From NCBI GenBank assembly GCA_012064415.1, contig SSNU01000163.1:124001-188000 (forward strand): DNA of 64,000 nucleotides, given 5' to 3'. Shown piece by piece: positions 3,249 to 45,352 of this stretch; position 1 is the stretch's first letter, and each line of letters begins with the position of its first letter. The position numbers were made by a program, and so were the translations under genes. The DNA is from Gyrodactylus bullatarudis (Eukaryota > Platyhelminthes > Monogenea > Gyrodactylidea > Gyrodactylidae). The notes under the pieces are model-generated. The model saw only the letters and a list, made by a program, of their open reading frames with translations. It was not told where the DNA came from and ran no database searches.

Positions 3249-6200
3249 ATGACTAGCAATCTTGTACAACAAAGTACAGATATATGTAAGTTTTCTAAAT
3301 AATTATCTCGAAGCTGATGAACTTGAGAAGATTTCTCTTCGTCTTTCATTGTCGAATTCTGAGCAAAAGTATGAATCCTTTGTGAATAAATCGTTACCTG
3401 TTTTGATAAAATATTTGGCCACTTGTGAAAATCACAGAAAGAAAATCTTTGAAATTCTTAGTGATATTATAAGAAATGTCAAAAATTATGAGACTATGGA
3501 TTTACCTGTCATTGATTTGTTCTCACTTTATAATGATGAATCCAAAAGTACATTCCTGCAAAATTTCAGTTATATTTATCTGAAACTTGGATATCCCAGA
3601 AAATCATTAAGCGCACAAGCTGAATTATTATCTACTCTATTTAATTCCCTCACTGAGGATAAACCAATCGTTCAGAGAGATGCGTAATTTAAATTAAGAT
3701 AATTATTTTTAGACTTTTACACTTGACATTTCCCGTCCTCCGATACATAAGCAACATTAGTTTCAATAAACATGAAATGAGGCTAGCTGAATCACATTAT
3801 CAGCGTCGTTTTATTACAGAGTTTTACACGCTTGTCCTCCTCCTTCCATACGAGTATGTAAACTATTCTTGGATTTCAATTTACAAAATAAAATTCTCTT
3901 ATTTAGTTTTTTGAGATCTATTCAATTCTCCAATGTTGACGTTTGTCTGGTTGACGGAATGAGTGTTTATGATTTCAACAGATTAGTTAACGAAAAGTAC
4001 TCGAATATTTTCCCTAATGGTCAACTGGAAAGCTATAAAGCAGCAATTGTCAGTTTCTTTTCACGTGGTATATTCACTCCTGAAGAGAGTATCATTCCAA
4101 TACTTTTTGCCAATGCTGATACTAGACACTCTGTTGTTTCTTTAGCTTCTAAGGAATTACGATATCTCTCTTTTGAAGTCGACTGGGAAGATTCTAACCT
4201 CTTGAGCAATCTTATGGATTGGTACCTGGGACGTAGTCGAGAATTCGACCCTATGGGTCATTTATTGAAGATGAGAAATCCACTTAGCAGTAGAATGAGA
4301 GTGAAACTTACTCCGTATCTTTTGAGATCGCGTATAACCTTACCTGGACCATTAATTGCTGACCTGATTAGTGCAATATTGTTGGGACTAACCTCGGCCA
4401 TGATTACCTCCAGAAATGTTGTCAAACAAGGCTTTTTGAATCAGGAGAATAAAAAATTAGACAACCAAGGAACAATGACACCCAATAGTGGAAATGATTC
4501 AATCAGCTCTCAACTAAACCAGCAGAATGGTGAGTAGTGAATGTTGATGCTTCCTCCTGCTACCTATACTTATTGAAATTATAGAACTTTTAGAGAGTGA
4601 TAACCTATCCAACTCGTTGGGCAGTACAAATTCTGCGGAATCTGTCAAAGTTGGAATAGTCTCCTTGATGCAACACCGCAAACTTGCTGACCACAGCCTT
4701 GATCTTCTCCAACACTTGATTACCTAGTAAGTACCTACTCATAGGAAATAATTTCTTGTCAACTACCTTTTTACTCTTCTCGTAGTTCACGACTGACCTG
4801 CTCTTCCACTGTCTCGGCAGCTCTTCATTGCCTCGTCAACTTTATCTGTGAAAAATCTCCAGACGAGGTTAGTTTTTATTCCTCACTATTTTCCATCCAA
4901 TATAAAGTTTATATCATCTTTTTTGAATTTCAGTTCAACATTGTTAGAATCAGAGGTCTTGATTTACTAGCAAAAATATTCAATAGACAACCATTCTTTC
5001 TGTTGTCTGAGCCCCTACAGTTGCCTCGTCTTTTTGATCTCCTCTGTCAGGATATATCACTAGAGTTGAAGAAAGCTGTGGGCAAATGTCTCATTCGTTT
5101 GTCGAGTAGTCTTGAAAAATTGAAAATTCACTATTACAATACGTTTAAAAATCAATTTGCCAAATTAGAGGAGATTCTCTTTGAGAATATCGAAAAGGTA
5201 AGTGCACTGACTTGAAATTATCTCCTCCTCTCTTTTATTGTCCGCTTACTATTTTGATAGAATGAGGTTATCTGTCGTCTTGTCGCTCTATGTTATGCTG
5301 AAACAATTTACGATTCAGATCACATTCCCACCAGATATCTCATTCTCCAAGCTCTCGGTGACAAGTGAGTATTCAACAACTTTTTCATGAAACTCGATAA
5401 ATCATTTTATCCATATCAGGGATCCTAGTGTCCAATACCAAGCCAGACAAATATTTTCGCCCTTCTTCAGTCCTGATATTGCCTATGACATAGTCTTTGG
5501 CAAGATGAAGTTGCCCAGTTTTGTTGAATTCGTCAATCATGTTAGTTTTTCCTAATTTTATTTTCTCCATACACCTTATCAATAACGTTTCCATTCTAGG
5601 ATACCAACCATCCGAGACAAAATCCATTCGTTGACGTAGAACGATTAGTTCCCGTGAGCATACTAGATGAAATTATATTCTGAATATATTCATGTTAAAA
5701 CTCAATTTCCTTACCTTTCACAGGTCGTAAGATTCATTCGATTCTGCCTTTTGGCTGAACAAGGTGGTCTCAGTGCCAATCAAGAGTCTGAAATGACCTA
5801 TGAGTCAGAAGATGAATTCCGCTATCGTATCAACCAAAATGTCCGACACTTTTTGATGCTACAACATAAAAGAAATGATAACTCTGACAAGACGGGAGAT
5901 AAAAGTGCCTCTGAAAAGACTGATTCTGATATTCCTTCAGATCTTAAAGCTGAATCACTCGATGTAAGTCTTTGATATAATATAATGATCTTTAGGACGA
6001 AAGCCTTGCCCAAAAGATGGAGAGTGTTGGCTTAACCCAGAACAACGTTGATGAGTTATTGGATGAAACAGCTGAAATGTATGCTCGCATTAACCAAGGC
6101 TCAGAATCGGCCAAGCAGAATGAAAAGGCTTCTGATTCTTGTACTTCTGTTTGTATCAGTCCTGAAAAGGCTCGTAGATGTATTGATACCTATTTCAGAC

Positions 6201-9200
6201 TAATTCAAGTTGTCATTTTTACTCGTTCACGAAATAATAAGGAATGTAAGTTCTTTATTCTGCTGCTTTCATTATTATCCTTAATCATAATTATGGCTTT
6301 TAGCTAATGACTTTCCGAAATTCCTCGAAGAAGTATTGGTCAATAACACCAAGGACTTGCTCATCAATGGAAAACAGTTGTTTGAACGAATCAATGTAAG
6401 CATATACAACAAACAAAATTAATTGACCATTGGCTGCTCTTCTTTCTTGAGATTCATACAATAATTATTGTTCCTTACCTCTAAAATACATTTAATTTAT
6501 TCTAGACTGTGTTGTTGATCTCATCCAGAGGAGCTTCATGTCGCCATGCCTGTGCCTCGGTTTATAGTGTAGTCATAATGGAAACTCAACCCCCTCATGT
6601 AGCCCTACAAACTGCATTAGCTATGCTACCAGAAGATGTCACAGTCCTCGATAATGACATGTCGCACTGTCTTCAAGGTATGTGCATGGGCACTGCTTAT
6701 CTTCTTGAAAGCTTGCATAGAACTTATTACAACCAAAATGCCGATAGTCAACCTGAGTCAAAGGAAGCAAATTCGACAAAGAAAAAGGCTCAAAAATCCA
6801 AGAAAAACGAAGTACAAAACGACCCAGAAACTGATCAAGCTGCAATTTCAAAAAAGATTCTAATTGGTATTCAAAAGCTATTGAATATCATTGATCAATT
6901 CCTTGTTTCGTCAACTAATCTAGGCTCTCAGAAAATAACTTCATCAAGTCATAATGTGGTCATAGAAAATCGATATTCAAACATTGATGTTGCCAGGAGT
7001 ACAATCACTGCACTTTTAGAAGCTCTAAAGGTATTAGGAGAAAGTGGTGCCTTATCTGATCTTTTAGTCTCTCGCCCACCAGTTGGCCAAGTAAAGGATA
7101 AAGGTCGTCCTCCTCTAACTGCTTCAAAACAGGCTTTCCTCCACAGAATCTCGAGTTATCTCCCACCAAATTTAGTCATTAACACACATAATAAAGATGG
7201 CAGCGTTGATGAGAGTTTTGAGGACATCAAGAAACTCGTAGAAGCTTCCATAAGGACAATGGTCTCAATCGCTATTGGTGAAAAGGATCGTACTACTGGA
7301 ATTCATCTTTACATCTTGAAAACCTTGGTGAACTCTGTTAAAATTAAAGAGGCTAGTCTCCATTTGTTTGTTGGCACAGCCATTGCTGATGTACTAATAG
7401 GTGAACATACTCCCTTCAAAGGTCACTGGTACCAGAGAAAATATCCTCTCAAAGTTGGACCGCCAGAACTCATCAAGAATTATCTTAATCCTGATCTAAA
7501 CAGTGATGCCAAATGGTTACATGATAAGCTAGTAGAGTTCCTTACACCCCTTCCAGGCCAGGTTACTACCCGACAAGAGACAATTTCTGCTGCAATTTGG
7601 TGTCTATCCATTGCTAAGCGTATTTCAGCCCCTCTCCACGGACTCATTCACATTGATAGCATTATTGGTCTGCTTGAAGAGAAAGAAGGTCAGTTGCTCA
7701 TTGTTAGCCTCATTCGGCCCTTATTATACTCATTCATATTTCTCTACAGTTTACGTTCAGTGTATTGGAGTTGCCTGTTTTGGTTTGATTTTTGATACCA
7801 GCTCCAACGAGGAAAAGCAGGTCCTCCTCGAAAAGATTGCAAACTATATTGAGAAAAATAAAAAGTAAGCTTTACACAAAATACCATACAGAATACATAT
7901 TCTTGATCAATTTCTTGTATTTTCCAGCTCAACAAACAATATCTATGTTGACCTCTATGAGCTGGCTGTACAAATCAATCGTCCCGACTTGGCCCTCTCC
8001 CTTTTTGTCTTGGCTATATCATCCTGTTTCAATAATGACGAAACTGATAATCCCATGAGCAAGTCCCTGTCCAGCCTTTTGGCTGAAATTGGATCCAGTC
8101 TACTGAGGAGACTGGGCCGAAATTTAGCTCCAGCCTTACCTCATCTTGTTCCTAGAATTTATGTCAACAGATTTGATCATAGTCGTCCTCATTTCCAAAA
8201 GGCTATGGAGAGTATTTGGCGCGGTCTCGTCATCTATTCAGATGCTGGAAATGTCACTACCAATTTCCGTTCTCCCTCAATGCATTCATCAACTGAAAAA
8301 TTTGTTGTCGATCTTGACGATGGGAATAGTTCACGTCAAAATACCGATCAGCAGCATTCAATAATTGACGAATCTCTCAAGCAAAGAGAAGACAATGGAG
8401 TTTCCTATTTCTACGGAGAAATGGATATCAACCGTACCTCTCGAAATGATTCAAATAAGAAATCCTTCTACTCTCAGCTTACACACTTGGTACCTTTTTA
8501 GACTTTTCCTATAAAATCTTCAATATTAAATTAATATTTTCTCCCTTCAGATTGAAGCACACTTTAATGCAATAGTCTGTGAGATAAAATCTCTCCTCGG
8601 CTTCATACCCAGTGTCCAAAGTACATCTGAACATCAAACCAATTCAACATCTGTGGTTATCTCGAAAAATCCTTGCAACGATAGATTTAGGGATGCTTGC
8701 TGTTATGCCCTGGTCAGTTTGTGTAAGCATCCTTCAGCTGAAAGAAAGTTGGCTGGCCATTTACCAACTCTCCTCTCCGGTCTGTTTGCAATAATTGAAT
8801 CCAACAAATCCAGTCCTGCCCCTGGTTATGAGTATGCTTACAAGGATCCCTCAAATGAGGAAATTATCCCTGCAGAAAAAGCTTGTATAGCTGTTCAAAA
8901 AGTAAGTATTTTTTATATTTCAAGTTTCATCATTTAATTAATTTCTTGAATAGATGGTCCTTCAAGTATTTGAAAATCCTTCTTCCCGGGAGGCAGCAAT
9001 ATTCCTCTTTCCTGGCCTACTCCCAGTTCTTATTGAAACTACGATATCATTACCGTTTGGATTGAACAGTCCTGTTAAACTGAATGCCGATGGACTAGCC
9101 AAGGTGCCTTCTTATCTAACTGAAGAAAGTGAATCAAAGAAATTGTCCCTTGATATTATCCTTGCTGCTGTTAGGGTTTCCAATGCCTCAGCCCTCATGT

Positions 9201-12200
9201 CAATCTTGCCGATACTGATTCTTGCTGGTCTTCATACAATGGCCTATCTGCCACCTAATCGCATTTGCTCATTGATTCGCCAACCAATAGCTGCTGCAAA
9301 TGCTATGAACATATTTCCGAATAGCAACACATCATCTGGTACTATCACTGTTCAATCTAATCCAACATCAGATCCTAATCAACAAAGAATGAGAAGCAAA
9401 ATCAAGGCTGAAATACCCACCAATTGTATTCCATCATCATTCTCGAGGGAAATTCAAATGGCTGAAATCCTAAGCATAGTTTGTCTTTTGAATGATACTC
9501 ATTTTATTATTTGTATTTTTTTTCATTATTTTTCCTTAGTGTCTTCGTCTCATCGATGATAGCTGCCTATCAGATTTGGTGATTACATTCACTGAACTAA
9601 TTCGTCTCGGCGGTGTCCTTCCCGATAAATCATCCTCCTCAAACCAAATATTCACCAACAATTCAACCTGTCAAACATCAGTTTCAGTCTCTGTAGCTGT
9701 CTGCGTTCTGATCACTCAGTTAGCTACTCGTTGTTCCTGGGTGCGCAGGCATCATAGTGCAATTCTGCCGGGTGCCACAACACAGGCTCTCCTCCAAATT
9801 CAAAACACCATTCAGCCACAAAATCAAATACCAATTAGCCAAGATTCAAATCCCCAACTCTTCAACAATACCAAGTTCTCGTCAGCTGGGCCACTCTCAT
9901 GTAGGTTATAATTTCTATAATCTAGCATTCCAAGATTTCCTCATCATGTTAATTCTTTCAGCACAGACAAGCTCATCGCAATCCTCTCCCCAGTGGGAAA
10001 ATAAATCAAAATCCATTCAGGCAAGTTCTTCACGTAAAACTCTAGACTCAGAAGAGTCCTCAAAAAGAGTTGGGAATATTAATTACAATGGTGAAGGGTC
10101 TGACGTTGTGGGAAACTTGAACTTGGCGCCTTATGCCGGAAAGTTGTTGGCTGCTCTCTTGGCTGCTATTCCCGGAGCAAGTCGTCACACAGACAGTGTT
10201 CGCATTGAGATGAATAGAGCAGTTGTAAGCCTTCTGCCTTTTGCAAAGGATAGTACAGTCGCAAAGTTAATTAATCGTGTTACTGGCTGGTACATGGACA
10301 CTGTCGCTGGAAATGAAAGCTCTGAGGAAATTCGTTATTGTTATGAGCTTGCTTCTGTGACAACATTGTTAACTATTGTTAATCACTCCCATCAAATCGT
10401 TCAAAAGCATGCCCCTCTCATATTCCCAGCCATTTTCATTGCACGGCAAAAGGAAGAAGAAATTGTCAACAACTTTGAGAGAGCCAGTTACATTATGATG
10501 TTCTCATTAGCAGGTCGAATAATGGCTATGACCATTTCCCTTTGCTTTGCCAATAACAAATGGAAGCCAACTGACCCTTGGTGTGTTGGTATTGCCTCTA
10601 AGAATGCTAATCAATATGACTTTGTTACAATGCGTAATAAGTGGTCTGATCTCTGGCTAGATGCACAAGCTGTCTACATATCCCATTGTCATTCTCAGTC
10701 CAAGGGTTCAGACTCAACTTTGATTCCCTCTTCTGATGGTAGTCTTAGAGAGGATGATTCCCCAAAATCAGTTAGCAGCAATTCAAAAAAAGCACAAGAA
10801 TCCCCTGATAGAATTGATTCCGACAATGGAGAGCCAAATCCTTCTGGTTCTATCAAAACAAAGCCAAAAGTTTTACTTAGAGACTGTGAAAATTTTGTCA
10901 GCTTGAGAAATCAAAGCTTTGTGGTTAAGCCACAAATTTTCCCCGAAATCATCTCGAATATAGAAAAACTTCTCTATGGAAAGAACCAAAGTTTGTTTTA
11001 TCCCACATAATTCATGAATTTTATGAAATTATTTCAATTTTCTCTTGTTAGCTATGCATTGGTCAATAAGAACTCAAGCAGCTCTGGCTTTGTGGTCTTT
11101 GACAGTTAGCCTTATAGAAGTTAATAACAGCGTAACATTTAATTGGGCCGAAGAAGCAAATGAGGAACTTTTGCTCAGTGCTGCTGATCTTGCTGCCACA
11201 ATGGCGAGTGAGGAAAGACCCCTGCTCATAAGTAAACAGGATCGTAGATCAATTTATCAACATCTTCAAAAACAAAAGGTAACCAGCAATGACGAGGACC
11301 CCTCGAATCCCGAGAAAAAACTCTTGAATATGCCCGATGGAAATAACCAAATCAACTTAGAAGATCTTCGTTTCAATCACAAGGTCTGGGTCAAATTGAC
11401 TAGCGTAATCATAAATAGTCTTGAGGAAACCAATCCATGGGCAGGCAAATTATACATTATTAGATCGGCTGCATTGCTCTGTTTCTATGCATGTGATCGA
11501 GACTTATCAATGAATGAGCCAGACCTTCTTAAAAAGGTATATTGAATCTTTTCAAATAAGCTAGTTAAAAAAGTATTAATCAAAAATTTTAGCTCTATTC
11601 TGCTTGTTTCAATGAATCCAAAAGTAAGAGAGCCATCAATTCTGTTAGTTGTATGGGCGCTCTAGAGTTGACCGATGATGAAGAGGCTTGTGGCTATCAG
11701 GTTGAAGCTCTTTTTGCTTGCTCTTGTGTCCTCGAAGCTTTAGATCAAAATTTGGATGTTTCTTCCGATGAAAATGTAGACGACAAGTACCCAAAGAACA
11801 ATGTTTCTTGTGAACTAATTTCCAAAATGTGCCAGATAGTTCTTCCAAATTACAACATCAAGGATAACAAACTATTTTCTGGCTGTCAAAAAAGTAATTT
11901 TTCTAATCATTAATCAATATTATTATTATTTGTTTATTTTTCATCACAGCGGATGAGACAATCAAAGTCAAAGGAAAGAAAATGAGAATTTTGAACAAAT
12001 ATCTCAACGATTATGAATTACAAGTTGCAATGTTGACTTTAACCCTCTTATGGCCTGAATCTAGAAAGAACCAGGACTGTAAGTTACGAATATCCTCATC
12101 ATTTCAATAAATTTCTCACATTTTAAAATTCTATCCTACAGTGAGCATATTACCAGATCTTCTTGAATTTATTGTAATTGTTCTACCAGAAGTATCCTCA

Positions 12201-12554
12201 AATGTACAAATTGCCACCTTAAATATGTTGATTGAAATCTTCAATAAAATTTCTCCTCAAGATATACAAGCTGGGATTGATGAAGCTGACAAAATTGATG
12301 CTGCAAAGATGGATAGAACTGTTGTTAACTTGCTCGGAATACTAGAAAAGTTTTCATATCAGTCATCAAACTTTGGTTTGCAGGAACAAAGTTTGAAAGT
12401 TCTTTCTGCAATTGTTTTTCACCCGAGTTTAATTAATGCACACAAAGAGACTATCGAAAAGTTAATAGATCATTTTATGAAACAAAATAAGTCAGCAGCC
12501 TCATGTCTACAAGAGTTAGCCTCTCAATTGCATGGAAAACTCCAAATATCTTAG
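3249..12554 (+). CDS. ECPAS: ECM29 homologue, proteasome adaptor and scaffold protein
   Basis: ECM29 is a HEAT-repeat protein that binds 26S proteasomes and links them to membranes and motors. Twenty-four exons join in consistent phase: 3249-3285, 3314-3683, 3713-3853, 3907-4529, 4585-4726, 4786-4867, 4934-5197, 5261-5364, 5420-5540, 5600-5653, 5724-5963, 5996-6245, 6304-6395, 6506-7688, 7750-7864, 7928-8489, 8551-8901, 8954-9478, 9540-9900, 9962-10990, 11052-11536, 11593-11893, 11950-12078, 12142-12554. They encode about 2,657 residues against about 1,850 in vertebrates. Landmarks shared with human ECM29 occur in order: KISLRLSLS and the LLHLTFP segment, ADTRHSV, TPYLLRSR, DHIPTRYLI, LVPRIYVNRF with SIWRGLV, and CLRLIDDSCLSDLV. 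The extra length lies mostly in Ser/Asn/Lys-rich insertions, for example at 6740-6860 and 8270-8480. The ATG at 3249 was chosen because it is followed by a short exon with a GTAAGT donor; the resulting intron is only 28 nt. Introns 2 and 11 are 29 and 32 nt; most others are 50-70 nt. Confidence 0.93.
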
Positions 12555-12892: not shown

Positions 12893-15800
12893 ATGCAAAC
12901 ATATAATATTCCATCTTCTACTCAGATTTATCATCCAAAATGCGAACGAGAAAAAATTATTACAGGTAGATTGATGCCTGGCGTGCCTAAGATTCCAACA
13001 AAATTTATCGGTAGTAGCAATGATTTTGGAACTTTATCGAATGTCATTGAGAAACTACTTGAGCTGCTAGAGGAACATAAAATTGTCCATTTAAAATTTC
13101 CAGTCGACTTGGACAAGAATATTATCATTCCTAGAGCTATCATCAACAAAGCTTGTGAAAAGAAAGAGAAATGCAGAATAATATTGTCCTATCCAAACCA
13201 TCTTCTTGCTAAATCATTTAGTGAGAAACTATCAGACGTGTATAATGAGAAATTGGGATTTCACGTAGGATATCAAGTCCGTCTTGAATCGAAGTAATTT
13301 CTTGATAGATTATTTTTTCAAATTCTAGAGTTTCTCCTTGTACATTTGCAACATTTTGCACTCACTCTGTTCTTATTCGTAGTTTATTTGCAGACTATAA
13401 AAAATTCGCTGGTATAACCCATTTAATCATATGTGACAACAAATTTCTGCAAGATCCGGATACCTCAGACAAGAAAATAAACATTTTCATTGATAAAATT
13501 CCTGATCTCATAAAAGTTTTTCCTCTGATAAAAATTTTACTGTTAACCGATTCTGGATATTCATCCCTTGAATCTAAGATCAACTATAATGAGGAAAAAT
13601 TAAAATTCGATTTATTAGAACTCAAACTATCGTCACTGGAAAACGAAGAAATTTTGATCAAATCCCTAGTAGTAAACTCATCTCAACAATCGATAAAAAC
13701 ATTTTATTTAGAAGATGTTTTGAGTTGGATTGGCACAATTGAAATGCCTGAAAATATTAACCAAATTATTCAAATTGATTCAATGCACTATTCAAACATG
13801 AAGTCAATGATAGAAAAAATAAAAATTGATCCCACTAAGGCAATTAACAATTTGGTAAGATAATTTATTCAACATAACATATTGAATGTATGTATCATTT
13901 CAGGAAATTTTAGAGACCTTTTTTTAGACATATGTAATGAGGGTAAACATTTCACCGCTTCTTTTTTTGCTCATTTTATTTTTGATTACTGTAGTGAACA
14001 TTAGTAACACTGTTTTTTAAACTCTTCTATAAGTTCAGATATACATAATATTTGAAAATCCAATTTTATGAAGTCATTGACATCAATGTGAGGACTAAAA
14101 TAACTAATTGGTAAAAAGCGGTTTAAATACAGCCATTTTCACACATGATGACTCGAGATAAATTAAATATTTCATGAAGGTTTATTTTTATACCTCTCTG
14201 CCCCAAGTCAGTAGCCAATGAATTTTCAGTATCCAAGGACCAATCAGAATTTAGCAGATTTTTTCTATTCCCAATATTTCACAACTTTCCATAAAGCGTT
14301 TGTTTTAAAATAAGATACTACATGTTAAGCCTCATGAGATAGAGAATTTTTTGCTCTTTTAAATGAACTAAAAATCATTGCTGTGTCTTTAGTAATAAAA
14401 TAGTAATAGATAAAATAACTCTGTTATCTTAGAGTGAACAGAAAAAATAATTGCACCATTCTATAGGCAATTGAATATCACATGTTATCCCTGAATATTT
14501 TTGTGAAACTGTAAAAGGTGTAAGATTCATTGCAAATATAAATCGGCTAACAAAACTTTTAACTAGGAAATTGTTGATGATAAAATATGAACAAAAATTT
14601 CACAAAAAGCTAAAACAAGATAGAGAGAATACCCAACCCCCCACCACCAGAAGATAGAAATTTTAAATGTGTGAATAGCACTCCAGTAGTCAATCCCCTT
14701 TCACCAAAAAGTCTATACAATACAGATGTTGTTAGATGAACTTTTCTAAGAGTGCGAACTGTTCGCCACCCTATAACCTCCATGAAATATTTAATTTATC
14801 TCGAGTCATCATGTGTGAAATTGACTGTATTTCAAATTTGGATATATTTTTACAACTAATAAATACTATTAAAAAAATGCTATTTTCTCAATCGATACAT
14901 TTTTAGTTCAATTCAATGATCCTTAATAAAAATCGAGACATTAACAATTTAACAATGGACGACTTAATTTATGACATTTGGAAAATTATTCTTGCTAATC
15001 ATATGTGCTTGAAAAAGATTGAATCAAATTCTTCTCTCTTACATATGAAAAGCATTCTAAAATGTCTAGTTTCAAGCTGGTTTTCGGTGGATTATCATCA
15101 TTCAGCATTGGGATTAAACTTATTGATGATATGTTGTGCTGCTGGCCTCGCAAAATGCGTAGAGACAATCTTGCAACATGGATCAAATCCCTTTTCTCGT
15201 ATTTTACTCCCCATTGATTTAGTCTTGTCCAAATACTCAAGATCAGATATTCTGGGTTCTGAAGACTGTGAATATGTCGCAGTCAATTCTTATCACATCA
15301 GCTTGATTTTCAACAATTTTTTCTGTTCAGAAATCATCCTCAATCACATGTGAGATTTATATAACAAATTTTAGGTGTTTCTTGAGCTCCAATGTTATTA
15401 TGGAAGATCAAAATATTTCAATTTTACGCTACAAAGCTATCGTTCGCAATCCGGTATCATTAGAGAGTGTTTTTGATGATAAAATATCAAATCTCAACTT
15501 GAGTAAAAATACTCTAAGTTATCTCATATCCAAGAATTTTATCCTCAATGATAATCAATCTGATTTTCACCTTATTTTCAGTTTAATAATTAAGATCCTA
15601 AATTTTTCTAACACTGGCAATATTCTAGTTTTCCTAAAAAATTACGAAGAAATTAATTCTTTTCGCAAATATTTCTTTGCTGTTTACTTTGAGCCGTAAG
15701 TCTTTTCTAAACTCTTCAGGCAAGAAATAAAAATATTTTTGATACACTCGAAGATGATGGTTTCAGATTTGATGAAAGTTCTAGAGGAAAAGACTTTAGA

Positions 15801-18586
15801 CGCCTCTCGTATTGTGAGTCTTATGGGTTATTTGTAAATTTATTCAGATTGTTTTGTCAACAAACTTTAGCGAAGATCATATTATTATTCCAAATATCTG
15901 TTTTGTTATTGACAATGGGGTGTGTGAGTTGGTAAGGCTAAATTTTTTTCTATTCTCTAAAGAGACTGGACAATAGTTGTAGTATTTCAATTTGGATCGA
16001 TAAAACTCAGGCTGACCGAAGAAGAAATAAGTAATTTGTTGATCTATTCATAGAATTAATAGAATCACATGTAAAGGAGATCCTATTGGAAATGATACTC
16101 GTCAAGGAATTTGTTTTCGGCTTTATCAAAAATATCAGCTGAAATCCAAATTTGATTTTGATAATATGACACCCAAGAGTTATCATAAATACATAATATA
16201 CAAGTGTCTTTTGAGTTCAACAGAAGCTAGTTTAAGAAATTTGATTCTATCACCAAATCAAAATCAACAATACTACTTGTACTATCTGAGAGTATCTGGA
16301 ATTTTAGATTCTTCCTTTAGACTGACCGAACTAGGATACCATGTATGTGACCTATCCATGGACCCTTGCTATGCAAAAATGATATTGATGAGCATATTTC
16401 TCAAATGCCTCGATCCAATTTTGACTATAGCTTGTATTCTGGCTTTGGACGGAGAACCTTGTGAGGACTAATTTAGCTTATTTTATTTTGTACAGTTGTC
16501 ACCTCATCTAAGCTATATGAGCAAGATAAAATTCTTGAAATTAAACGAAAATTTGCTGCAGACACAGCCAGTGATCATATGGCTTTACTGAGAGCATTTC
16601 AATACTGGCAAAAGGCTAGATCAGAGAATTGGGAAAAATCTTTTTGTGATAAAAATATGTTGTCTCAGTCCAAATTTGAAATTATCATATTGAAGAGGAC
16701 CAGAACTCTTGGCCAATTACGGGCCTTGGGGTTCGTCAAAGCTCGAGGTGCAAGTGACATTAGAGATTTAAATTTGAACAGTGGTAATTGGGCTGTAGTA
16801 AAGGCTGCTATAACTTATGGAATGTTTCCCAAAATAAAGAAAACAAAATATCTTTCGAGTGAAGCTCCTAATTTGGAATTAGAAAAATATTTTATTAGCC
16901 CCCTTTCAGTTTCAAATAAAGCTTTTCGAAAATCTCAGGACTACATTGGTTTGCATGGGCTGACTCATGAGAGGAATAAAGAAAGAGTTTTTCATGTTTA
17001 CGACAAGGAGCAAAGACTCAGAGTGTTTGAAAATTACAGTTTTAATACAATTGAAACAGTTACTGCTGTCTCTTTAACTACTGTCAAGTTGATGTGTGGC
17101 TTCAATAACAACATGGGTATGTGAATTTTAATTTATCTCTTTTAGAAAATTCTAAATTGGACAATCTAATCCATTTGCTACATCAAAACTGGTTCTTTCT
17201 TGTTAACGAAAAAATTAAAAATCCTGGTAAGACGTTTTTGGATTTTGAGAAGTTGACGCTCACGACAGTTGTTGAATTAATCACGACTTCTGAGAATGAA
17301 TTAAATCCACATTGTCAACCTTTAAATGTTGGAATTAGACCTCGACCGGTAGCCATTGAACCAGTTAATACGGAAGAGCTTAGTTCTTTTAAACTGCAGC
17401 TTAATAATGCTACACAGAGTTCCAAGTTGAGTATTGAGAGAAATAAAAAGTATTTCATGTATTTAACCTTCTACCTAATAGTAATCAACAAGCAGAAAAA
17501 CATGAAAATATCAGACAAAAGTTTTATCAAATTACCGAAAGGAACAATGTAAATTATATTGATCACCTTCGTGAGAAATTTTCTTCAATGAAGCTCCATC
17601 AAACTGATCATTCATCAAATCTTCCTCATTGTTATAATTATCAATCAATTGCGATAAATGATTTCACACCGACCAGAAAATATAAAATTCATGAAAGTTC
17701 AGCCGGTTTGAATTCTGGAGAATGTCAATTTTCATTAAATGCTTCTATAAGTGTGTGATTTGTCGGATAAAATTCTAAATATTTTTTTATTTATAAAAGA
17801 GATTTATTGAAAAAAATTAAAAAGAGGTAATGGTTATCTGGTGATAATTTTCTTGGAAATCTGCTTTATTGATTGGTGTTCAAAATTAAATTAGTTGACT
17901 TTGAATCTGATTCTGAGGGGATATAATGTGGAACGACAGAGGTACTTTTTCTGAGTACTTTTACGAATGTTAGAGAGGAGATCCCCACAATATTCAAAAT
18001 GAGGAAGGATACATTGTTTATGCAGTAAGAGTTCGAGATCCGAGTAGCGTACAAACTTTCTTAGGAAGTATGATTAAATTCTCAGTATCCTCAAAGTTTC
18101 TTCAGCATGAATGCGATTGTCAAGCTTTTAAGTTCAAGCGTAGTTAAGTCCGAGATCATTGATTTGAGTAACTAGAAGTGTGTTCAGGTCGGAATCAAGC
18201 AGGATTTTATCGCTGAGGCACATTATTTTAGTCTTATTGGTGTTGAAGGATAATCCAATTGTTTCTAGATGTGATGACAGATGTAAGTTCGGATGATTTT
18301 TTCTTAGTTAAAAAAATTAGTTGTAAACATTTTCAGACAAATTGAGGAGAAATTTTAAATATTTAAGAATTTGATCAGATTCCGAAATCAATATTAGAGA
18401 CTTGTTAGTATGGCTAAGGGTTTTTCATTGATTTCAAAATAAACCTCTTCTTTTGTGTAACTTTAAAAACAGAGAATTGATCGGAGTAAAGTTCCTCTAT
18501 ATCTTTTTCTAGGTGATGAAGAAGAATCCAGCTATTATGAGAAATTGGAAAAACAAGTTGAACAAATATTAAAAACATTTTTCTAA
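12893..18586 (+). CDS. YTHDC2: YTHDC2/Bgcn-like DEAH-helicase relative with degenerate ATPase motifs
   Basis: The family regulates germ-cell RNA: YTHDC2 in vertebrates, and Bgcn in flies, which is ATPase-dead and lacks YTH. Exons: 12893-13293, 13329-13854, 14907-15349, 15375-15695, 15720-15813, 15848-15931, 15963-16030, 16054-16460, 16496-17116, 17146-17458, 17482-17750 and probably 18513-18586, about 1,206 residues. If the last exon is wrong, translation stops at 17758 (1,184 residues). YTHDC2 landmarks appear in order: GYQVRLESKV, ATFCTHSVLIR, an ankyrin repeat inside the helicase region (GLNLLMICCAAGLAKCVE), VLSTNFSEDH, GICFRLY, CLDPILTIAC, DHMALLRAFQYWQKARS, GQLRALGFVKARG, NSGNWAVVKAA and GIRPRP. 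The Walker A GxGKT is replaced (VDLDKN), DEVH is replaced by CDNK, and the QRxGRxGR motif is lost (DRRRNKINRI). No YTH domain follows. Five introns are 23-31 nt. The two long introns (1,052 and 762 nt) both carry transposon debris. The homology is sure; catalytic death is inferred from motif loss. Confidence 0.9.
14121..14837. mobile_element. Terminal-inverted-repeat element (MITE-like) inside a helicase-gene intron
   Basis: The segments 14121-14180 and 14777-14837 are reverse complements over about 60 bp with only a handful of mismatches; both contain TTCACACATGATGACTCGAG or its complement. They flank about 600 bp with no coding capacity. The whole lies inside the 1,052-nt intron at 13855-14906, in a gene whose other introns are mostly 23-35 nt, so insertion explains the length. 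No clear target-site duplication was identified. It could be a non-autonomous DNA transposon or another foldback element. Confidence 0.7.
17891..18300 (-). mobile_element. Decayed non-LTR retrotransposon (LINE) reverse-transcriptase fragment
   Basis: The minus strand reads, with stops, HLETIGLSFNTNKTKIMCLS, INDLGLNYA, RIHAEETLRILR, KFVRYSDLELLLHKQCIL, HFEYC and LRIRFKVN. Each piece aligns in order with the larger LINE copy at 29532-30688 (for example AIGLTINDSKTKIMILS, IKDLGLNYD, SKFEYC). There is an internal deletion before the last piece and several stop codons, so it is dead. It sits in the last, 762-nt intron of the YTHDC2/Bgcn-like gene, in antisense orientation to that gene. Confidence 0.8.
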
Positions 18587-18891: not shown

Positions 18892-20208
18892 ATGATAATG
18901 ATAACAGGTTTATCTGTTGCATTCTTTCTAAATACTCTAGTCTGGTTCTCACAGGGTCTAGATAATAATCTGGCCAGGACACCGCCCATGGGTTGGATGA
19001 CTTGGGAGCGTTTTGCGTGTGAAACCGATTGTAATAGATACCCTGATACCTGCATTAGTGAACACATGATAATAAACCAAGCGAAATCATTCAAGGATCA
19101 AGGATTTCTCGATGCTGGTTATCAGTACATGATAATCGATGATTGCTGGATTGGCAAGAGAGACGAGAAAACCCAGGAAATTCGAGCTGAGCCAAAAAGA
19201 TTTCCTAACGTGAGTTATAGAATAGTTTAATCTGAAGGGCATGGAACATGTCAGCAAATATTTGAATAATTTGGGAATTAGTTTCGGTATATATCTCGAC
19301 TTTGGCTCGCTTACATGTGGTGGCTATCCAGGCTCAGAGTTTCACTTAAACCAAGATGCCCAGACTCTTGCAAAATGGAATGTATCCTATGTCAAAATGG
19401 ATGGCTGTTATGCTAATGCAAAAGATTATGAGAAAGGCTATGAAACTTTTTCAAAGTTTATAAACACCCAGGATAGATCAACTGTATTTAGTTGTAGCTA
19501 CCCTGCATATATGAACTGGGAGCAAGGAGATCCTTTCAGTTGGACAAAACTTGTTGAAAACTGTAATTTATGGCGAATGTACTACGACATTACAGATGAT
19601 TGGGGTGCCGTTCTTGGTATCATCGATCTTTACAAGAAACAAAACGATAAACTATCCAGGTATGGCGGAATCGGCCATTGGAATGATCCAGACATGTTGA
19701 TGATAGGAAATTTCGGTCTGTCCAGAAGTCAATCATTTGCTCAAATGGGCATGTGGGCAATATTTGCTGCCCCCCTCATTATGTCAACTGATCTCACCTC
19801 TATTGATCCTGATATGAAATCTATTCTATTGGATAAAGATCTCATTGGCATTGACCAAGATTCCCTCGGCGTTCCTGGACAGTTTGTGAAAGATCAAGGA
19901 AAATTGTCGGTGAGAAATTTGATAATTGCAATGATAATTTATAATTAATTTTAATTATAACTTTATTCTCTATTTTTTAGTTTTGGAAGCGAACATTGAG
20001 CCTTAACAGAATGGCGATTGCAGTTTTAAATTCTGATACAATCGGTTCATCCAAAAGAGTTACAGTATCATTCAGAGATTTTGGAATACCCGAAGGTAAA
20101 AGCTTTACAGTATACAATTTAAAGTCAAAAATTAATGAGACTAATCAAAATTCTTACGAGTTCAACTTATTCAGTTCATCCCTGGATTTACGCATAGTTC
20201 ATCTTTGA
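18892..20208 (+). CDS. NAGA: Lysosomal alpha-N-acetylgalactosaminidase / alpha-galactosidase A family (GH27)
   Basis: This enzyme removes terminal alpha-GalNAc (or alpha-Gal) from glycans, normally in lysosomes. Exons 18892-19209, 19238-19909 and 19981-20208 give 405 residues, the usual family length. Residues 1-22 form a signal peptide. Family motifs: RTPPMGWMTWERFAC, IIDDCW (substrate-binding Asp pair), YVKMDGCY (nucleophile Asp), DITDDW (acid/base Asp) and HWNDPDMLMIGNFGLS. The specificity loop reads CSYPAY, with Ser and Ala where alpha-N-acetylgalactosaminidase has them and alpha-galactosidase A has Glu and Leu, so GalNAc specificity is predicted. The first intron is 28 nt, in phase 0. 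The next gene is a tandem paralogue less than 100 bp downstream on the same strand. Confidence 0.93.
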
Positions 20209-20301
20209 ATAAAATAATAATTAACATTATGCAATTTACAATTTTTCCTCTAATCTTTCAGATTATCAAGTGATCTTGAACTAATGCCGCTTGTTCTCTA
20301 G

Positions 20302-21708
20302 ATGCTGTCAAAAGAAATTCTTGCATTTCTATGCATTGCTCTGCTGGCGATGGCAGTTGCTAAACCTCCTATGGGCTGGTCCAGTGGATTTCGCTTCAAG
20401 CAATACACCGATTGTACAAGTCAAGATGATTCATGTCTGAATGAAGCCTTGGTTAAGGCCACAGCTGACGAGCTAGTCTCTGGGGGCTATCTCAGCAAAG
20501 GTTATGACCACATAATTCTCGAGGATTGGATGGACAAGGACCGCGATTCAAACTTTCAACTTGTCCCAGATAAAAAACGATTTCCACAGGTAGATTTGTA
20601 CTTTTATTGTTTCCCTTCCAAATGTAAATTATTATGAGTTTCTTAACATTAACCTAGGGATTCAAATCGCTTATTGATTACGTTCATGGGAAAGGTCTCA
20701 AGTTTGGTCTTTATCTCAATTTTGGTCAGTACACACCCAATGGCTCTCCAGGGTCAATGTTTTTCATGGATATTGATGCAAAAACAATGAGAGACTGGAA
20801 AGTGGACTACGTAAAACTGGATGCTTACCAATCAGATCCGAATCAACAAGAAGTTGGAATAATGACATTTTCCAATTATCTCAGACAAAATAATAAGTGA
20901 TTTAGAATAAAATACACTAAATAGGACTTATCAAATGATTGCTTTGATTCTCTATTTTCTAGTTCAATTCACATCATGTGTCAATATCCTGTTTATCAGG
21001 CATGGCAAACTAAAGGAGGTAGTTACGATTTTAAAAATCTCGCCAAATCCTGTGACACATGGAGAATAACTGGTGATGTTCAAGATAGCTTCTCAAGCAT
21101 CAAGGCTGTCGACAATTTCTTGGTGAAATATATTCCAGATTTGTTGGAAAAGCAGAAAGACTTGTATGATCACCCCTTTGATTCTGACTTTCTCCTGATT
21201 GGAAATACAGGTCTTTCTAAACGACAATCTGAAATGCAGATGATGCTGTGGAGCATTTGGAATGCACCATTAATCATCTCTGCTGACCTATTGAAAATGA
21301 CCGATTTTGATAAAAAACTACTCCTAAATGAATTCCTAATAGAAGTCAATCAGAATACAAATGGAAATATGGTCGAAACAGTGAATGGCCCAAATAAGAA
21401 TATTCAGGTGAAATCACGTTCACAGAGATTTTAATTTCGAACTTAAAATCTTTTTTAATTTCTTTTAGATTTGGAGAAGAAAAATTTCTGATAGTGAACA
21501 GGTTGTATTATTCCGAAATTACAATACTCTTGGCTCTCAAATTAACCTCACTAAATCGGTAAAGGAGCTGATCAATGTTAATTCGGGAAAATTCAGTCTC
21601 ATGGATTTGTTAACTGGGAAAATCGAACGTCAAATCGATGCAAGCACACAAATTAACTTTGTGATCACCTTGTCGTCTGGAAAAATTTTCAAAATTTCTA
21701 AAGAATAA
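20302..21708 (+). CDS. Divergent tandem GH27 paralogue, substrate site altered
   Basis: Exons 20302-20589, 20658-20896, 20963-21407 and 21469-21708 give 403 residues with a strong signal peptide (ILAFLCIALLAMAVA). GH27 landmarks remain: KPPMGWSSGFRF, GLKFGLYLNFG, YVKLDAY (nucleophile Asp kept, following Gly-Cys lost), DTWRITGDVQDSF (acid/base Asp and the preceding Arg kept) and GNTGLSKRQSEMQ. Substrate-site residues have changed: IDDCW is EDWM, NDPDM is DSDF, and the specificity loop is CQYPVY. Both catalytic Asp residues survive but the sugar pocket does not match either known specificity. It may have a new substrate or be a non-enzymatic lectin-like secreted protein. It arose by tandem duplication with the gene 93 bp upstream. 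Confidence 0.88.
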
Positions 21709-28291: not shown

Positions 28292-29246
28292 TTAACAATT
28301 GAAAAGTTCCCAAATTCTGATAACGCCATCTGTGTAGCCAGCATACAATTTTTGTCCATCTGGAGACCAAGTAAGACATGTGCATTCGAGTCTCTTGGAG
28401 GTACTATTGGATTTAAGTTCGTCGAATAGGACCTTGTGTTGAAGATCCCAGATTTTAATGGTTGATCCCATGGCGACGCAGAGCCAGTATTTATCGGGAG
28501 AGAAGCAAAGAGCTTTAATTTCTCCACCTGCATCTAAAGTAAACATAAATCTATTGTCGTGGAGATCCCATAACATAGCGTGGCCATCCTTGCCACCTGA
28601 GGCGCATAGTGATCCATCAGGGGCAACAGCAACTGAATTGAGATAACCAGAATGACCAACCAAATTGGTTCCTAGTGAACAGTTGGTCAGAGACCAAACT
28701 TTGATGATTTTGTCCCAGCCACAACTAACAAGAATTGGTTTCTCAGTGTTAGGTGAGAATCGAACACATGATACCCAATCGGAATGACCATTGAAAGTGT
28801 ATTTACATTCACCCAAAGTATTCCACATCTTGATTGTTCTATCACGTGATGCAGAAACTATTTGACGATCGTCAGCACTGAAGGCTACGCTTAGGACATC
28901 TTTAGTATGACCCTCAAATAGTCGAGTAGATTTTCCATAGGTAAGATCCCAAAGGCGGAGAGTTGTATCCCAGGAGCCAGATAAAGCGAATAGACCATCA
29001 GAGGAAGTAACTACGTCACTAACAAAGTGGTTATGTCCGAGTAGAGATTTTTTAGCATAACCGTAATTTCCAGGAGAATGGGTCAATTGCCAAACGATTA
29101 AACTTTTATCTAAAATATTATTAATTAAAGAATTTACCTCTTGAAGATGAGATAAGAACATCTGGGGTCTGTGATGAGGTTGTAATTTGAGTGACCCAAT
29201 CTGAGTGACCGGTAAGTCTATCAACGTATTTCAACTGTTCATTCAT
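28292..29246 (-). CDS. RACK1: RACK1, ribosome-associated seven-bladed WD40 scaffold
   Basis: RACK1 sits on the 40S subunit head and docks signalling kinases. Exons 29246-29138 and 29109-28292, separated by a 28-nt intron in phase 1, encode 308 residues (human 317). Seven WD repeats are visible. Conserved stretches include [107 protein letters not shown] and [13 protein letters not shown]. The ATG at 29244-29246 gives [17 protein letters not shown], matching the family start. The match is close along the full length. Confidence 0.97.
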
Positions 29247-29531: not shown

Positions 29532-30688
29532 ATTGTCGATGCAATATGTCATCACATTGTATCATCGGAGATTAATATGAAAACTATGGATGCCTCCCAA
29601 CATGGCTTTGTCAAAAAATTAAGCACAACTTCCAATCTCCTCACTTTTTTGATGAGGCTAATGACCTTATCCACAAGAAAATCCCTACTGCAGTTATATA
29701 TCTTGACCGATTGCCATTCATAACTATTCAATCAGCCCTAGTTCAAGCAAACATTAATCCATATCTCATTAACTGGATCTGTAATTTCATCTCTAATAGA
29801 AGTCAATTTGTACACCTTGATAATCAGTCCTCTGATATTACTCGAATTACCTCCGGAGTTCCTCAAGGCTCAATTATTGGACCTCTACTATTCAACCTGG
29901 TATTTTCTAGTATTGTCCCTACATCAACGAACCTTAAATACTTTAAATATGCAGACGACTTAAAAGTTCTCATTCCAAATTATTCTCAACAAAAAATTCT
30001 TGATGAACTCATGCATATCAAAGACTCACTTAGAGCTATTGGACTAACCATCAATGATTCGAAAACTAAAATTATGATTCTCTCGCCAAGCAATCCGTCG
30101 AATGAACTAGACTCTAGTCTCTCTCACCTAATAGTTATGAAAATTAAAGACCTTGGTCTTAATTACGACAACAAACTCAGAGTCAAGCCTCATATCAATG
30201 AATTACTTAAAACACTCAGATACGCGACTTATCTAATAACAAGATTCATAACATGCTCGAAACTCAAACTAATTGTATATAAAAGCTTCATTTTATCTAA
30301 ATTTGAGTACTGTGCCGCTCTAATAATGGGAATAACAATCGAATCTACTAAAAAGATTGAAAGAATTCAATACAGATTTCTCAAATCATGCTTTGGCATG
30401 GAAAGTTACAGAGAATCTCTAACCGAAGCTTCACTCTATCCTATTTGGTTGAGAAGAATTGCTGCATCGCTGGTACTTTATAAGAATACTATGAACTCAC
30501 GCCTGAGGAGATATGAAACTAGAAAAAACAGAAGCTACACAATCCTTCTCCAAAACACCCTCCAACTAAGAACCAGATTCAAAATAAATCTATCGAATCA
30601 TAAATTTGTAAATATAAAAGCAACCTGCCAATTCCTATTTACATATATTCCAGAGAATCATAACATGTTTAAAAATTATTTTTTATAA
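29532..30688 (+). mobile_element. 5'-truncated, broken non-LTR retrotransposon (LINE) with reverse transcriptase
   Basis: The sequence reads QHGFVKKLSTTSNLLTF, then after a one-base frame break IPTAVIYLD, then an open frame to 30688 with SGVPQGSIIGPLLFNLVF, FKYADDLKVL (catalytic Asp pair) and GLTINDSKTKIM. The region expected after YLD, the F-x-K-A-F-D part of motif A, is missing, so this copy cannot be active. The 3' region encodes a typical post-RT segment and ends in an A+T-rich tail with ATA/AAT runs near 30710. A degraded copy of the same family is at 17891-18300. The clade is probably CR1/Jockey-like; I cannot place it more precisely. Confidence 0.88.
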
Positions 30689-35251: not shown

Positions 35252-36611
<1,360 letters not shown>

Positions 36612-44973: not shown

Positions 44974-45352
44974 TCACATCGGCCAAGGTAGTTGAAGATT
45001 ATATGAATAGTTTTTCTGAACACATAGATTAGGTTTGTGTTGATTGATAAAGAATTTCTCCTTTACCCACACATCTATGCTGTCATCTCCAGGGTTTTTA
45101 TATAAAACGGAAAAATTTGAAATTGAAGCATAGTGGTTTTCTTGTTTAAGATGTCTAGTAACCGCGGTATCCTTATGTAAATGATCATTCGATCTTGTAG
45201 ACAATTTCCTAATAGTTCCTCCTATGTAAGAAGCGCCACAATCACATTGGAATTTATAAACTAATAGAGTTTTCTCTTCAGGCTTGAGTAAATCCTTATG
45301 AATCAAACTGAACAATCTAAGTTTTAAATACAATTTTCAATTGTATAATCCT
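44974..45352 (-). mobile_element. Penelope-like element relic, GIY-YIG endonuclease end
   Basis: The minus strand encodes LLVYKFQCDCGASYIGGTIR, then TRSNDHL, TRHLKQENHY and KEKFFINQHKPNLC. This is the GIY-YIG endonuclease typical of the C terminus of Penelope-like retroelements: Cys-x-Cys before the YIG, an Arg in the helix, and a Glu before the final KHKP-type segment. The linker LRLFSLIHKDLLKPEEKT also fits. No reverse-transcriptase part was found upstream on that strand, so it is a fragment. A second, more damaged copy starts at about 63827. Confidence 0.85.

Follow-up and report, generated by a model that had tools for sequence, protein, structure and literature searches.

The window, that is, the whole stretch of 64,000 nucleotides analyzed here, carries a YTHDC2/Bgcn-like gene on the forward strand at 12893..17758 (3′ end uncertain), placed by alignment with six YTHDC2 relatives chosen from 120 listed, namely, one fluke, two scallop, two frog, and one other protein. 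A PDB search matched the encoded protein to the C-terminal part of a DHX36-type helicase (E = 1.9e-32), and a Pfam search of the same protein found HA2_C, a Helicase_C match slightly below the cut-off, and no YTH domain. The helicase motifs that we take to be Walker A, DEVH, and QRxGRxGR are lost, which together with the missing YTH domain is presumably also the state of Drosophila Bgcn. Motif VI is degenerate in the fluke YTHDC2 relative (P0015) as well. The two halves of the gene are not bridged by any long open frame; between them lies a non-coding gap at approximately 13863..14907 (+ strand), probably a long intron of ~1 kb, and the second half is open from ~14907 to 17758 once the last eight of the nine introns claimed for this gene are removed.

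These nine introns had been proposed in the initial annotation, and their coordinates, lengths, and GT/AG ends all proved correct in the sequence (9/9). The further claim that each is needed to restore the reading frame and the family similarity stands for most of them. The 5′ frame meets a stop within the segment in seven of the nine, and the 31-nt intron at 15932..15962 is required by a stop at 15974, 12 nt past its end, and the 3′ frame has a stop within the segment (15939). Six of the nine also lie within or at the edge of aligned blocks, all on the + strand. Removal of the 35-nt intron at 13294..13328 joins RLESK to VSP.TFATFCT, matching vertebrate and scallop YTHDC2; the 34-nt intron at 15814..15847 falls in the RIIVLSTNFSE block, and the alignment likewise supports 15932..15962, where the gene caller chose 43 nt. 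Other legal GT..AG segments of 15-60 nt exist at these three places (four to eight each), whereas the 24-nt intron at 15696..15719, in an aligned block, and the 35-nt intron at 16461..16495, aligned with one residue gap at its junction, are each the sole legal segment. At 16031, where two segments are legal, the frame alone permits 16031-16062 (32 nt) as well as the alignment-supported 16031..16053 (23 nt), and we read the alignment as favoring the latter. The remaining three claims, likewise on the + strand, are less well anchored. The frame needs the 29-nt intron at 17117..17145, the sole legal segment there, which is poorly aligned; the 25-nt intron at 15350..15374, with a 5′-frame stop at 15351, has an ambiguous acceptor (15374 or 15386), the alternative 15350-15386 of 37 nt being equally possible among two legal segments; and the claimed 23-nt intron at 17459..17481 lies in an unaligned tail with seven legal segments and is not required, because the frame stays open to 17550 without its removal. 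We judge the run of tiny introns in this gene to be real, although one of the claimed introns is unneeded and another ambiguous.

Similar introns occur in neighboring genes. The ECM29 gene (3249..12554, + strand), defined by the gene caller and by alignment with flatworm ECM29 proteins, has 26 model introns, of which 16 are supported by homologues, three contradicted, and seven left out of the supported set; the supported ones comprise one of 29 nt (3684..3712, + strand), lying in an ungapped block among the flatworm proteins shown, and fifteen of 52-70 nt. An alpha-galactosidase/NAGA-like gene carries a 28-nt intron at 19210..19237 (+ strand), and the first 364 residues of its spliced model match Melibiase_2 over positions 1-284 of 284. 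Two such genes stand in tandem at 18897-21708 and were fused by the gene model. The RACK1 gene (28292..29246, - strand) has one 28-nt intron, whose junction is ungapped against a solved RACK1 chain, and a G-alpha-q gene contains introns of 67 nt (35370..35436, + strand) and 66 nt (35906..35971, + strand), residues 1-239 of 240 aligning gap-free to a solved G(q) alpha chain. The window also holds a LINE-like reverse transcriptase at 29576-30688 and a candidate Penelope-like element ORF at 44974-45336 (- strand), with another at a second locus (L025); both resemble what we take to be pieces of a GIY-YIG endonuclease.

To assemble a supported set, gene-caller calls in ECM29, RRM1, RPC1, TAF5, G-alpha-q, NAGA, and RACK1 were judged by eye against homologues, which supported 31 of 38 and contradicted seven (56, 36, and 27 nt in ECM29; 21 and 28 nt in RRM1; 32 and 26 nt in RPC1). 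Kept out of the set were seven calls in ECM29 and further ones in RRM1, TAF5, G-alpha-q, and the NAGA-like model, as was a 36-nt call from the second of the G-alpha-q models, which looks wrong against the Gq sequence. With six YTHDC2 introns added, the set reached 37 introns in eight genes (16 of them in ECM29), and removing them restores the conserved frame in homologue alignments. Their lengths fall into two classes, with 13 introns of 23-35 nt (median 29), one of 42 nt, and 23 of 52-74 nt (median 61). Since the caller accepted only GT/GC..AG segments of 18-75 nt, this set is silent on longer introns and other boundaries; an intron of ~110 nt seems to exist in ECM29 at 6396-6505, as does the ~1-kb intron of the YTHDC2 gene. 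Both classes coexist within single genes (ECM29, RPC1, and TAF5). The claim that the short size class recurs elsewhere is thus borne out by homology for NAGA (28 nt), RACK1 (28 nt), and the 29-nt member of the 28, 29, and 32 nt listed for ECM29, while the lengths for Hook (33, 28, 29, and 32 nt), CISD (29 nt), and the UTP12-like gene (26 nt) are gene-caller lengths and, like the 28 and 32 nt of ECM29, remain candidates. Judged from sequence and homology, recurrence of 23-35-nt spliceosomal introns across genes is supported; the second class of 52-74 nt had been missed.

Motifs and clustering were analyzed in two larger sets, one of 99 short introns and one of 107 longer ones, consisting of frame-breaking calls in genes scoring at least 25; four ECM29 calls (the three contradicted and one more) had been taken out beforehand, and the sets still include the contradicted RRM1 28-nt and RPC1 32- and 26-nt calls and those in transposon ORFs of L025. 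Neighboring introns belonged to the same class in 90 of 147 pairs, compared with 73.1 ± 6.0 after shuffling (p = 0.002); without ECM29, this tendency was weak (73 of 127, p = 0.047). The idea that the 61-nt class represents two fused short introns was rejected, as no AGGT/GTAA signal was seen at the middle.

We then asked how far the GT..AG boundaries stand out from chance by letting the boundary dinucleotides of a simple gene model vary freely (256 pairs) over the window and 28 loci. Once dinucleotide frequency was corrected for, GT..AG came out as the likeliest pair (3696 versus 3632 for the next, 63 log units); it ranked 75th of 256 in the uncorrected comparison, which was replaced because it favors A/T-rich pairs. 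Likewise, the trained GT..AG model reached a total score of 4982, compared with 4295-4686 for five models with altered boundaries, and its learned splice matrices were near AAG/GTAAGT at the donor with a T-rich tract before AG. Taken alone, the nine YTHDC2 gaps say little, as GT..AG fills all nine but so do many other pairs, and it ranks 38th (30 legal GT..AG segments versus 17.3 expected); the case therefore draws its strength from the full set and from homology. In one gene-caller run with a flat length prior of 12-200 nt, the loosest filter (n = 155) left 32 introns at 21-38 nt and 58 at 51-72 nt, with 7 at 39-50, 19 at 73-100, and 36 at 101-200 nt. At a delta of at least 2, the two peaks held 32 and 58 introns for GT..AG versus 2-13 and 9-28 in the altered models, and at a delta of at least 4, 4 and 13 versus 0-2 and 0-5. 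Some excess at these lengths appears in the altered models too, because real exon gaps remain.

Donor and acceptor consensus are common to the short and longer classes, with a weaker G in the short class at -1 (0.28 versus 0.47) and +5 (0.44 versus 0.57). The motif TAAY is mildly enriched in short introns (52/99 versus 38.9 ± 4.1 shuffled) and not in longer ones (72/107 versus 76.2), and no fixed branch-point position was found. In short introns, AG is scarce at 4-11 nt before the terminal AG (9 versus ~23 expected), which hints at a branch site ~12 nt upstream. Part of this scarcity may, however, stem from the acceptor model, and two supported short introns (TAF5, 31 nt; RPC1, 35 nt) speak against such a site in having an AG 9-10 nt upstream. 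The C+T fraction next to AG is 0.72 and 0.73 in the two classes, the 3′ ends being T-rich in an A/T-rich genome.

The initial annotation had suggested that introns this small imply an adapted spliceosome and had proposed looking at homologues of U2, SF1, and U2AF, and genes for U2, SF1, and U2AF65 were indeed found. Three loci (L029, L030, and L031) encode U2 snRNA, and the branch-recognition stretch GUGUAGUA is intact in two of them; the U2-like copy at L031, which lacks GUGUAGUA, may be a pseudogene. A U12 snRNA gene gave a full-length match (L039:1501-1658, 76 bits), from which it seems that this genome, for all its tiny introns, has retained a minor spliceosome. A U2AF65 match covers positions 22-510 of 510 (L033, 467 bits). 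It lies in one open frame of 502 codons and is intronless. SF1-HH (96 bits, positions 36-111 of 114) and RED_N (222.8 bits) were also matched. C185 carries, ~1.8 kb apart on the same strand, a G-patch and a weak match resembling UHM (42 bits, under the family cut-off), a pair that we take to be SPF45-like; a PDB search with the G-patch piece did not return SPF45. With U2, U12, U2AF65, SF1, and RED present, a loss or reduction of the spliceosome is not indicated and the suggested adaptation is not supported, a subtle one being still conceivable.

Taken together, these results make it very probable (roughly 0.93) that the tiny introns are ordinary U2-type GT-AG introns of a Gyrodactylus flatworm, belonging to the shorter of the two short-intron ("microintron") classes known from parasitic flatworms, which center here near 29 and 61 nt. 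This reading is built on introns observed through sequence and homology, on their two size classes, and on the U2, U12, U2AF65, SF1, and RED genes. For their removal, we infer a route in which the tiny introns are most likely excised via intron definition. U1 would pair with the near-consensus GTAAGT, while SF1, U2AF, and U2 would crowd on a degenerate branch site perhaps ~8-17 nt from AG, and RED/SMU1 together with the SPF45-like protein may aid activation of the cramped complex.

The origin of the DNA bears on this reading, as a dicyemid genome with a specially adapted spliceosome would offer introns of similar size (26.2 ± 1.9 nt, PMC2222250; median 27 nt, PMC6543705) in a genome of similar size (67.5 Mb, PMC6736024). 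However, when residues 1-1689 of the ECM29 model were scored against the 7979 candidates with most shared words, ten flatworm proteins gave 1040-1183 bits and the other four listed 95-191 bits. In a maximum-likelihood tree built from the entire model plus 13 of these 14 sequences, it falls among the flatworms beside the monogenean Cichlidogyrus (97/99, flagged for long branches), so that ECM29 ties the window to monogeneans, if on long branches. Moreover, the one COX1 found, on a contig other than the window's, reads through in the flatworm mitochondrial code (code 9: TGA = W, AAA = N, AGR = S), and its best match among those listed (120 of 214) is a Gyrodactylus cluster at 90% identity, followed by Macrogyrodactylus (86%) and by Cichlidarus and Paragyrodactylus (85%). 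The assembly size of 77.3 Mb and the G+C content of 33% in the window fit the 67-91 Mb and 31-39% given for Gyrodactylus genomes (PMC12677651). Nor do the available parts of the dicyemid papers describe a large 61-nt class. The dicyemid reading is therefore barely credible, and would require both a foreign mitochondrial contig and a long-branch error in the ECM29 tree.

It is also very improbable that the frame breaks are merely assembly indels or pseudogenes. Some short calls did turn out to be coding or wrongly placed (three in ECM29 and two each in RRM1 and RPC1), but what must go to restore the frame is not a single base but an entire block of 23-35 nt bearing donor and acceptor consensus, the frames are intact on either side, the same holds in eight conserved genes, and GT..AG comes first of 256 pairs after correction. 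Just as improbable is a U12-type identity for some of the short introns, which the full-length U12 snRNA gene would allow; a GTATCC donor occurs in 0 of 37 supported introns, with ATATCC donors outside the caller's rule. Less remote, yet still unlikely, is a division of labor in which the ~29-nt class would use an SPF45-like protein and RED instead of U2AF65 and the ~61-nt class would use U2AF65. The RED gene and a probable SPF45 gene are present, and human short introns with SPF45- and Smu1/RED-dependent splicing are described (PMC8363638, PMC6692369), but donor, acceptor, and near-AG pyrimidine content are much alike in both classes, and thus no clear sequence signature separates them.

Short introns of this kind have precedents. 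Bimodal short introns are described in tapeworms (~36 and ~73 nt) and in Gyrodactylus salaris (PMC5036155), and the tiny-intron class is therefore mostly known in this genus. As here, the "peak-1" and "peak-2" introns of that work are two A/T-rich classes at a length ratio of ~1:2, and genes with the longer class are richer in introns, a pattern that ECM29 fits; the peaks here, at ~29 and 61 nt, differ from the ~36 and ~73 nt of that work. In flukes and other flatworms, "microintrons" are gene-clustered and sometimes lost to annotation settings (PMC6530080). In Opisthorchis felineus and other flatworms, the short class is clustered as here, and in both cases no motif of its own was found; the O. 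felineus peaks are at 37 and 90 nt, and our introns, with C+T at 0.72 and 0.73 beside AG, do not clearly show the polypyrimidine-tract loss described there. The dicyemid introns are typically 26-27 nt long, in another phylum, and no ~61-nt class is mentioned in the available portions of PMC2222250 and PMC6543705. The description of the present introns as among the shortest expected in any animal is accordingly fair, their length being comparable to these published introns and hence no record. Stentor also combines very short introns (15-16 nt) with the usual snRNAs, but there the length is nearly constant and the branch A usually sits at position 10 or 11 (PMC9505925), whereas no fixed length is seen here.

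The novelty lies in the two peak lengths, which are based on 37 introns from eight genes. A class of 23-35 nt occurs together with one of ~61 nt in a genome where several factors for 3′ splice-site recognition are present. A speculative and rather unlikely reading is that both Gyrodactylus classes have shrunk jointly from the tapeworm ~36/73 nt to ~29/61 nt, keeping a ratio of ~1:2 with few introns between. If so, a flatworm spliceosome would favor two intron geometries, scaled lineage by lineage and reaching as low as 23 nt, without loss of U2AF65, SF1, RED, or indeed the U12 RNA of the minor spliceosome. For annotation, published Gyrodactylus gene sets have mean introns of 353-773 nt and BUSCO scores of 56-59% on the assembly (PMC12677651); a search of the text of that paper found no minimum intron setting. 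Minimum-length settings can hide microintrons, as PMC6530080 warns, and some of the seeming gene loss in Gyrodactylus may therefore be an artefact of missed microintrons.
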